Of a stretch of DNA of 64,000 nucleotides, positions 8,623-11,721 are shown in pieces; position 1 is the stretch's first letter; each line of letters opens with the position of its first letter. The notes under the pieces are model-generated. The model saw only the letters and a program-made list of their open reading frames with translations, was not told the DNA's origin and ran no database searches. The DNA comes from Chlorobiota bacterium (GTDB taxonomy: Bacteria; Bacteroidota; Ignavibacteria; OLB7). The stretch is from contig JAQBOZ010000007.1 in the NCBI GenBank assembly GCA_028287785.1, positions 1-64,000 of the forward strand, given 5' to 3'. The position numbers and the translations under genes are program-made.

Positions 8623-9633
8623 TCAGGCGCTCATCTGCAGCATCCGCTCCAGCGAACGCTCCGCGCCACGCATCACCTCGTCGGGAAGGTTGATCTCCGG
8701 AGACCTGTTGCGCATGCAGAGATAGATCTTCTCCAGCGTGTTCAGCTTCATGTACGGACAGTCGTTGCAGTTGCAGCTTTCCTCCTGCGGAGGGGCCGCC
8801 ACAAACAGCTTTCCGGGGGAAAGCCGCTGCATCTGATGAAGGATGCCGGACTCCGTTGCCACGATAAACTCCCGCGCGTCCGACTCCTGCGTGAATTTGA
8901 GAAGCGCGCTGGTCGATCCGATGAAATCCGCCCGGTTGAGGAGCGACTCCTCGCACTCCGGATGAGCAATCAACAGCGCATCGGGATGGCGATGCCGCAG
9001 CTCGATGATCTTCCGCTCGCTGAACGTCTCGTGGACAATGCACGTCCCCTGCCAGAGAAGCATCTTCCGCCCTGTCTTCTTCATCAGATATCCCCCCAGA
9101 TTCCTGTCCGGAGCGAAGAGAATCTTCTGATCCATCGGGATCTGGTTGATGATCTTCTCGGCCGATGACGACGTGCAGATGATATCGCTCAACGCCTTCA
9201 CTTCGGCGGAACAGTTGATATAGGTGATGGCGATATGATCCGGGTGAAGCTCGCGGAACCGTTTGAACTCCGGCGCCGGACAGCCGGAAGCCAGCGAACA
9301 GCCGGCCGCCATGTCGGGAATCAGCACCTGCTTGGCAGGGTTGAGAATCTTCGCGGTTTCCGCCATGAAATGAACGCCGGCAAAGATGATGACCTCAGCG
9401 CTGGTCTCCTGCGAGCGCCGCGCCAGCTCCAGCGAGTCACCGATGTAATCCGCGATGTCCTGAATCTCCGGCTCCTGATAATAGTGAGCCAGAAGCACCG
9501 CGTTCATCTCCCGCTTCAGCCGCATGATCTCATCGGCAAGATCGAGCCGCAGGTCGATCTGATCGACTCGTATCCGGGACTGATCGGGATCGGTGGCGAT
9601 CGTCACCGGGGCCGTTACATCGAATTCGAGCAT
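8623..9633 (-). CDS. nadA: Quinolinate synthase A
   Basis: NadA condenses iminoaspartate with dihydroxyacetone phosphate to quinolinate, the first committed step of de novo NAD synthesis. The 336-residue frame shows [36 protein letters not shown], and the three cysteines that ligate the oxygen-sensitive 4Fe-4S cluster: C112 in [12 protein letters not shown]198 in WQGTCIVHE and C292 in [11 protein letters not shown]. The length is normal. The ATG at 9633 follows GAGAGTGAAGG, a good ribosome-binding site; the 80-codon upstream extension lacks similarity to NadA. NadB and NadC are not in the window. Confidence 0.95.
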
Positions 9634-9933
9634 GCCTTCACTCTCTCTGATTGGATGACAAACCTTCATCTCCATCACGCGAACGTGGGAGCTTCCGCCT
9701 CGGGCAGGCTCCGCAAGGGAAACCGGCCAAGTATAATGGATGTTCACAAGCTGTACAACCGGGAGCCTGCAAACACGGCCGGGCAATGCATACGGTATGA
9801 CGAACGAGGATCGGGAATGCTGTTGGGGAAGATGGGAGCAGGCGGCGGATGGAGATGATGCTGCGCGCGACAAACGGACGCGGGACGACCGAATCGAGAC
9901 GAAAGGAAATCACGGAAGGAGATGACCGGACCG

Positions 9934-10154
9934 TCAAAAAACAATCGACGGGCGGCGAGGGTGGCGCCCCGCCGCCCGTGATTGGACTATGCCCGTCGTG
10001 CCTAGCTCATAGGGAGGTCCAGACCCACGAGTATTAAAGCCGTTCTCCGCGATTAACTTTATGAGAGGTCCAGAATCATAAAAGCGTCGCGGCGACTCGG
10101 CCGACGTTGGTTTCCAACAGGAACTACATAGTGCGTCGTTGGAAATGCCTAGCC
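9934..10154 (-). ncRNA. Candidate small RNA with twin hairpin loops and intrinsic terminator
   Basis: On the minus strand a sigma70-like promoter (10161-10190) is followed by about 220 nt packed with stems. They are TTTCCAAC/GTTGGAAA; then a stem closed by TTATGA/TCATAA with loop TCTGGACCTC; then a stem closed by CTC..GGG/CCC..GAG presenting the same loop TCTGGACCTC. The transcript would end in a 10-bp GC hairpin (9948-9957 with 9970-9979) followed by TTGTTTTTTG, a textbook intrinsic terminator. No gene lies on this strand between nadA (start 9633) and 10318. An open frame spans the same interval but has no coding character or start context. It does not match 6S, tmRNA, SRP or RNase P RNA patterns. 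The repeated C-rich loop could pair with Shine-Dalgarno regions; function is unknown. Confidence 0.5.
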
Positions 10155-10160
10155 AATGCG

Positions 10161-10190
10161 AATATACAGAGTTTTGCCCCCCATGGGCAA
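10161..10190 (-). promoter_or_regulatory. Sigma70-like promoter for the candidate small RNA
   Basis: Read on the minus strand, TTGCCC (10185-10190) and TATATT (10161-10166) are separated by 18 bp. Transcription would start near 10154, just before the first stem of the candidate RNA. The match to consensus is 4/6 and 5/6. Confidence 0.4.
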
Positions 10191-10317
10191 CTTCAATGTA
10201 AAAAAAATTTCTGCGGGCGTTTTCTTCTCTTAAAACAGGGGGATTTCCCGCAGGCTTCGTAGTTTTCGACGCTACGAACAGATCAAGATTGTGTAATCTA
10301 CTAAATCTCAATCATTC

Positions 10318-11721
10318 ATGCTAACTGGCAGGCCAGGAACCATCATCCCCAAGATCCTGCTGATCGATGATGATAGAAGCTTTCTCGATACCGTTGCCGA
10401 GCTGCTGAGACGGGCCGGCTATACCGTCATCACCGCCGAGGGAGGGGAGCGCGGGCTCCGGACGCTTGGCGAAGAGGCCGCATCCGTCGCCCTGGTCCTC
10501 CTCGATATGAGGATGCCGGACATCGACGGGCAGGAGGTGCTGGAACGGATCGTCAGATTCCATCCATCGATCCCGGTGATCATGCTGACCGGCGAAAACT
10601 CCATCGATCTGGTGGTCGGCGCCATGAAGAGCGGCGCCACCAACTATATCTACAAGGGATCGAGCCCCAACGATCTCCTCACCGCCGTGGCAACGGCGCT
10701 GGAACGGGGACAGCACCGCGGGACCGCCCCCGGCGCCACCGATGATCTGGAACGCTACGGGATCGTGGGACGCAGCCCTATCATCCAGCGGCTTCTGACC
10801 GATGCGGCGATGTGCGCCAATACCACCATCTCCGTCCTCGTCACCGGCGAAACCGGCGTCGGCAAGGATGTGCTGGCACGCGCCATCCACGCGATGAGCC
10901 CGCGGAAGCTGAAGCCGTTCGTGGTGATCGATGTGCCGAACATCCCGGCAACGATGTTCGAGAGCGAGCTGTTCGGCCATACGCGCGGCGCGTTTACGGG
11001 CGCCACCGATGCCAAGACCGGCCTGGTGCAGTCCGCCGATACCGGCACGGTCTTCCTCGATGAGATCGGTGAGTTTCCCATCGAGCTCCAGGCCAAGTTC
11101 CTCCGGTTTCTCGACTCGCAGTCCGTCCGCCGGCTCGGCTCCACCACGTCCGACATTATCGACGTGCGGATCATATCGGCCACCAACCGCAACCTGCTGG
11201 AAGCGGTCCGCTCGCGGATATTCCGCGAGGATCTTCTCTACAGGCTCCGCGGCATCGAGATCTATGTCCCCCCGCTTCGGGAACGAAAGGAGGATATCGA
11301 GCCGCTGGCAACCCATTTCCTCAACCTGTTCGCCACCAAGAACGGCATCCCCGTAAAGCGACTCAGCAACTCCGCGGTGGATCTCCTCGAGCGGCAGCGG
11401 TGGCCGGGAAATATCCGCGAGCTGCGCCGCGCGATCGAGGCGGCAGCGGTGATGTCGCCGGAGGAATTGATCGACCATACCGATATCGCCAGGGTGATGG
11501 AACGCGCCGATCCCTTCCGTCCGGCGGAGATGACCGTGGTGCAGGATTATAACGATGTGCAGATGCTCGCCAAGCAGACCAAGAAGGATGAGCTGATGAA
11601 GGTGCTGGACCGGAATGACTGGAATATCACGCGCGCCGCGGCGGAGCTGGATATCGACCGCTCCACCCTTTCCAAGCAGATGAAGACGCTCGGCATCAAC
11701 AAGCCGAAAATGCGGATGTGA
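10318..11721 (+). CDS. NtrC-type sigma54-dependent response regulator
   Basis: The 467-residue protein has the three NtrC modules in order. The receiver domain (10-128) has the acidic pair in LLIDDDR and phosphoacceptor D63 in LLDMRMP. The AAA+ domain (about 148-380) carries Walker A GETGVGKD (177-184), the sigma54-contact loop GAFTGA (224-229) and Walker B VFLDEIG (245-251). The C-terminal Fis-type HTH (about 425-465) includes NITRAAAELDIDRSTLSKQM. It should open sigma54-RNA polymerase complexes at enhancer-dependent promoters when phosphorylated. No cognate kinase is adjacent, so it is an orphan here. The start at 10318 has no Shine-Dalgarno; an in-frame start a few codons later is possible. 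The C-terminal end is followed by a hairpin terminator at 11765. Confidence 0.95.
   Translation: MLTGRPGTIIPKILLIDDDRSFLDTVAELLRRAGYTVITAEGGERGLRTLGEEAASVALVLLDMRMPDIDGQEVLERIVRFHPSIPVIMLTGENSIDLVVGAMKSGATNYIYKGSSPNDLLTAVATALERGQHRGTAPGATDDLERYGIVGRSPIIQRLLTDAAMCANTTISVLVTGETGVGKDVLARAIHAMSPRKLKPFVVIDVPNIPATMFESELFGHTRGAFTGATDAKTGLVQSADTGTVFLDEIGEFPIELQAKFLRFLDSQSVRRLGSTTSDIIDVRIISATNRNLLEAVRSRIFREDLLYRLRGIEIYVPPLRERKEDIEPLATHFLNLFATKNGIPVKRLSNSAVDLLERQRWPGNIRELRRAIEAAAVMSPEELIDHTDIARVMERADPFRPAEMTVVQDYNDVQMLAKQTKKDELMKVLDRNDWNITRAAAELDIDRSTLSKQMKTLGINKPKMRM

Follow-up and report, generated by a model that had tools for sequence, protein, structure and literature searches.

A predicted small RNA with two identical exposed loops and its candidate multi-site partner RNA in a Chlorobiota bacterium

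The stretch of DNA analysed here (the window; 64,000 nucleotides, positions 1 to 64,000 of contig JAQBOZ010000007.1 of a Chlorobiota bacterium) contains, on the minus strand between nadA and a gene for an NtrC-type response regulator, a well-supported predicted RNA gene of approximately 219 nt (approx. 10154-9936) with the same 10-nt sequence in two hairpin loops. The RNA is a new RNA family, and what is unusual about it is the duplicated loop together with a candidate partner that carries several complementary sites. The most likely partner of the loops is a non-coding stretch on another contig, here called R2. That the small RNA acts in trans, its twin loops pairing with the several sites of R2 as a target or as a sponge, is suggested by complementarity and has, in our estimate, an even chance of being right. 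Few small RNAs have been characterised in Bacteroidota outside Bacteroides, and the one described here combines a clear anatomy and an unusual duplicated loop with a partner locus that can be named from sequence alone. The RbpB-associated small RNAs of Bacteroides may be a parallel case of Hfq-independent RNA control. Like them, for example FopS (PMC11697453), the present RNA is a candidate regulatory RNA of Bacteroidota.

Both neighbouring genes lie outside the RNA, nadA (quinolinate synthase; 8623-9672, minus strand) downstream of it and the NtrC-type gene (10318-11721, plus strand; Pfam Response_reg, Sigma54_activat and HTH_8) diverging from it. The RNA gene (9936-10154, minus strand), recognised from its fold, its homolog in the sister species and a covariance-model search, is preceded by a sigma-70-type promoter (10161-10190, minus strand), in which TTGCCC (10190-10185) and TATATT (10166-10161) are separated by an 18-nt spacer. 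It closes with an intrinsic terminator (9936-9982, minus strand), with a GC-rich stem of 13 pairs (9979-9948, extended slightly in the fold) and then TTTTTT at 9941-9936. The 5' end of the RNA is estimated from the promoter and the 3' end from the terminator U-run. In the predicted fold a short closing helix (GGCUA, 10154-10150, with UAGUC, 9989-9985) brings together a 5' hairpin (UUUCCAAC...GUUGGAAA, 10111-10145, minus strand) and a branched arm, whose inner helices lead to the two loop hairpins (closing and inner helices, 9985-10154, minus strand), and the terminator follows. Hairpin 1 (10057-10083, minus strand) has the loop UUCUGGACCUC, which contains UCUGGACCUC at 10074-10065, and hairpin 2 (10006-10031, minus strand) has the loop UCUGGACCUC at 10023-10014; at the level of the gene, TCTGGACCTC is found exactly twice, at these two places, each time inside a hairpin loop. 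Loop 1 has predicted unpaired probabilities of 0.91-1.0 throughout; those of loop 2 are 0.77-0.99, falling to 0.66 at its last base.

The energy of the fold is -89.4 kcal/mol against a mean of -71 for dinucleotide shuffles (z -3.78; 0 of 200 shuffles as good), and a smaller shuffle test gave z -6.1 for 217 nt. A first-pass annotation of the window had placed a promoter, stems and an intrinsic terminator on the minus strand of this gap, with coordinates and parts that proved correct, and had proposed a discrete small RNA of approximately 220 nt presenting one 10-nt loop on two hairpins; the RNA gene predicted here, with its own promoter and terminator, a fold below shuffles, a homolog in the sister species and two loops predicted to be open, agrees with that proposal. 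The loop had also been described as nearly self-complementary (GGTC/GACC), which needs correction: GGUC/GACC can be read in hairpin 2 only, where GGU is part of the stem, and the loop is not really self-complementary because on its own it gives just GG-A-CC with an A-A mismatch. When Rfam covariance models were run against the RNA (6S, tmRNA, SRP, RNase P, riboswitches and others), nothing reached the gathering threshold, which extends to every other Rfam family the earlier remark that the first four do not match; the best sub-threshold matches corresponded to the terminator stem and were at chance level.

Five genomes of the family were compared (G000 to G004), G000 being that of the window and G001 that of the one further species known in the genus. 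Outside G000, the small RNA was found among them in G001 only (G001:C4:208669-208905:-), in the same order of nadA, RNA and NtrC-type gene, the ortholog of the latter being 77% identical. The two RNAs are 85.5% identical, against 46% and 45% for the flanks. Both loops are unchanged, and predicted to be open in either species, while the stems vary; the 5' hairpin is nearly invariant and the terminator is conserved. The promoter of G001 has the same layout (TTGATC-18-TATATT), and AACTCTKTATATTCG is kept within an otherwise unalignable upstream flank. When the G000 RNA is folded by itself, 12 of the 17 pairs touched by a substitution are still paired, whereas random placement keeps 45% on average (P approx. 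0.002). In a joint fold of the two sequences all 71 of 71 pairs are kept, 12 of them through changes and one with both sides changed: the stem of hairpin 2 stays paired through a U-A to C-G and several G-U to A-U type changes (columns 132-157), and one pair of the closing helix is kept through a G-U to A-U change. The comparison gave what the first-pass annotation had proposed to look for, namely constant loops and varying stems with pairing preserved, and the covariation amounts to a single comparison, in which one pair is changed on both sides, because the RNA is known from two species only. A covariance-model search of 391 genomes of the class returned the G000 and G001 copies, the RNA being absent from the other 389, and the exact twin-loop pattern, sought in 99 genomes of the class, was matched in this genus only. 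As is expected of independent trans-acting small RNAs, the RNA lies between genes with a promoter and an intrinsic terminator of its own and has a structure conserved beyond chance, and its exposed loops are complementary to a partner RNA, the last property being dependent on the strand from which R2 is read. That it is a genus-specific, autonomous small regulatory RNA, taken jointly with pairing in trans to R2, is an evenly balanced judgement.

R2 is a non-coding stretch of 0.6-0.7 kb (G000:C28:60075-60773, minus strand) that follows a small secreted-protein gene on its 3' side and is bounded at its other end by a gene for an AAA ATPase. The surrounding island, whose further products include a MalT-like LuxR regulator and an HTH/LuxR protein, is syntenic in G001. 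In G000, a pattern requiring the loop twice within 60 bases matched the small RNA and one other place, G000:C28:60400-60486. Most of the R2 sequence has diverged between the two species. GAGGUCC, the complement of the loop core, is present four times in R2 of G000 and five times in that of G001, where approximately 0.05 would be expected; on the R2 gene strand GGTCC is found seven times in each species, against zero and one for GGACC. Three of the G000 sites are exact complements of the 10-nt loop and the core shared with G001 is of 7-8 nt, the full 10-nt match being found in the window's species only. When every 7-mer of the small RNA was compared with R2, complement counts above 2 came from loop 7-mers only (3-5 in G000; 5 for GGACCTC in G001). 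Motif counts were taken from approximately 1.3 Mb sampled of the genome. In the other intergenic DNA of this sample no tile of 700 nt contains GAGGTCC more than once, and GGACCTC, which ranks 4356 of 8176 in 237 kb of intergenic DNA, shows no over-representation. Predicted duplex energies between the small RNA and R2 are -18.7, -18.3, -18.3 and -14.5 kcal/mol in G000 and range from -12.8 to -15.8 at six sites in G001, and duplexes with the opposite strand of R2 reach -8.5 and -12.3 at best. The sites are not predicted to be especially open, accessibility does not separate the two strands, and without its end hairpins R2 is no more structured than shuffles.

Because R2 holds several exact loop complements in both species, pairing with it is the probable mode of action of the loops. 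In the mechanism proposed, the small RNA would be made and would accumulate, and its rigid branched fold would hold the UCUGGACCUC loops open as duplicated seeds. These would then pair with several of the R2 sites, which might accommodate several molecules of the small RNA or both loops of a single one. R2 itself could form the 3' UTR of the mRNA for the secreted protein, or else be an RNA that is processed or separate, and it would be either regulated by the small RNA or a sponge that titrates it. The trap for ChiX in the chbBC mRNA is an example of such a sponge or trap RNA; as there, a second RNA with complementary sites could titrate the small RNA, but R2, which lies 3' of a secreted-protein gene, repeats its site 4-7 times within a single RNA and may be a target rather than a sponge. 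An unlikely extension of this scheme is a two-RNA circuit new to biology, in which the rigid twin-loop small RNA would face a long complementary RNA with 4-7 sites, embedded in a signalling island that encodes regulators and a secreted protein, and a single word of 7-10 nt would underlie a network of competition between RNAs. In such a circuit R2 would titrate the small RNA or be cooperatively bound by it, and the small RNA would have competitors for R2 in the same-sense loop copies that precede the HTH and MalT-like genes. Pairing with R2, as a specific RNA-RNA circuit, is testable by two loop mutations, and it would provide an example of a multi-site partner as opposed to scattered mRNA targets.

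The strand of R2 decides between pairing and a protein motif shared by the two RNAs. The GAGGUCC strand is the probable one because the only conserved U-run terminator of R2 (CCCCCUUUUUUUU; GCCCUUUUUCU) is found on it in both species; the end hairpin of the opposite strand is without a U-run, and relative to shuffles the GAGGUCC strand folds better than the other, again in both species. On the opposite strand of G001, upstream of R2, there is a promoter with the layout of that of the small RNA (TTGATA-18-TATATTCG; L011:1877-1848, minus strand, G001:C70), from which another short RNA, with its end near a T5 run, may be transcribed.

The latter promoter lies on the GGACCUC strand and is among the observations that would suit a different reading, in which the GGACCU loops are the site of an RNA-binding protein and both the small RNA and R2, read from the GGACCUC strand, sequester it in the manner of CsrB or RsmZ. 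This strand of R2 repeats the motif 4-5 times, a hairpin with the hexaloop CUGGAC is found in G001, and in G000 the HTH and MalT-like genes are preceded, on the gene strand, by same-sense copies of UCUGGACCUC, those 5' of the HTH gene being in loops; a protein-binding motif would equally explain these copies. However, the conserved U-run terminator and the better fold belong to the other strand of R2, and the loops 5' of the HTH gene of G001 (AUGACCUAA and GAGACCUGA) are without GGA. Moreover, a search for CsrA (PF02599) gave no match in the five family genomes, although it does find the protein in 5 further genomes of this class and in controls from E. coli, B. subtilis and T. maritima; no other protein is known as a candidate. 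The small RNA resembles CsrB, RsmY and RsmZ in repeating a short GGA-containing motif in hairpin loops and differs from them in the missing CsrA match, in a motif that reads GGACCU(C) rather than ANGGA, and in related loops of the sister species that, in part, are without GGA; in place of the many ANGGA loops typical of CsrB and RsmZ, it has two loop copies that read CUGGACC. Titration of the CsrA/CsrB type was therefore rejected on the search in G000-G004, and sequestration of an RNA-binding protein more generally is retained as the main, though less likely, alternative.

Hairpins with loops related to those of the small RNA are found elsewhere in the island. Between the MalT-like and HTH genes of G000 (L009:8300-8494, corresponding to G000:C28:63299-63493, minus strand), perfect hairpins of 11-13 bp carry the 9-nt loops AGGACCUAA and UGGACCUGA, and in G001 (G001:C70 89790-90420) the loops AUGACCUAA and GAGACCUGA are borne by stems with G-U pairs, in a region ending in a strong terminator. 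The hairpins 5' of the HTH gene (loops GACCURA) are not claimed to be part of the same system because the sister species keeps a core of only 5-6 nt. Upstream of the ATPase gene, a long perfect hairpin (L009:4694-4724 in G000, L032:3775-3822 in G001) carries the word of the small RNA in its loop, which reads TGGACCC in G000 and TTGGACCTCGG in G001. The HTH protein, with an HTH_32-like N-terminus and a LuxR/GerE C-terminus, is one of a family with several copies per genome, matched 7 times in G000 and 11 times in G001, and a scan around its paralogs revealed no comparable motif array.

Redundant, exposed C-rich sites are known from Xanthomonas sX13 (PMC3771888) and Listeria LhrC (PMC4132741), for the activity of which Hfq is dispensable. 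With these RNAs and with S. aureus RNAIII, the present RNA shares stable stems, several exposed C-rich sites that are redundant within one molecule, and a proposed action through pairing with G-rich partner sequences. A general anti-Shine-Dalgarno role, in which ACCUC of the loops would repress many mRNAs as in RNAIII, LhrC and sX13, could be imagined from the complementarity of ACCUC to GAGGU and from the duplicated C-rich loops, which are typical of such RNAs. It is improbable: at 961 start regions (approx. 1.3 Mb sampled) GAGGTC is present 6 times against a mean of 13.7 for its composition class, and GAGGTCC sites at starts are few. General anti-Shine-Dalgarno action, which the first-pass annotation had hinted at in calling the loop anti-Shine-Dalgarno-like, was rejected on this lack of enrichment. 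By the same result, the earlier suggestion that duplicated loops point to protein titration or to pairing with many mRNAs loses its second half, and its first half is faced with the missing CsrA match. The present RNA also departs from RNAIII, sX13 and LhrC in having two identical 10-mer loops, with GGACCUC rather than UCCC and no sequence relation to them, and in complements that cluster in one non-coding RNA or 3' UTR instead of being enriched at ribosome-binding sites.

The position of the element on the strand of nadA, which it adjoins in both species, and its compact branched fold followed by a terminator would also be compatible with a transcription attenuator or leader of nadA responding to a ligand or to NAD status. 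Such a role is, to us, very doubtful: at least 264 poorly conserved bases (45%) separate the U-run from nadA, no Rfam riboswitch matches, nadA of the sibling genera (G003 and G004) is without the element, the gene upstream of it there being that of an EamA-like transporter, and the complementarity of both loops to R2, which pairing in trans accounts for, would be left unexplained. The nadA genes of the sibling genus have a conserved leader of their own, ACCGATTGCAGAAACTTCG.TGCTGGC.GGAACC.A.GAAAGGAATAGTTTAG (L067:1290-1420 and L068:3250-3380), for which an Rfam search gave no match.

It is scarcely credible that there is no RNA gene at all, the hairpins having arisen by chance or the minus-strand open frame of 125 codons (9934-10311) being coding, since this frame, although it covers the entire stretch, is interrupted in G001, with a 1-base gap inside the RNA, and the substitutions spare pairing and not codons.

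Between the NtrC-type gene and the promoter of the small RNA, the window also contains a hairpin (CTGCGGG...CCCGCAG) followed by a T8 run (AAATTTTTTTT; 10297-10195, minus strand), which might terminate a short leader or antisense RNA, and a T-run is found at the same relative place in G001.
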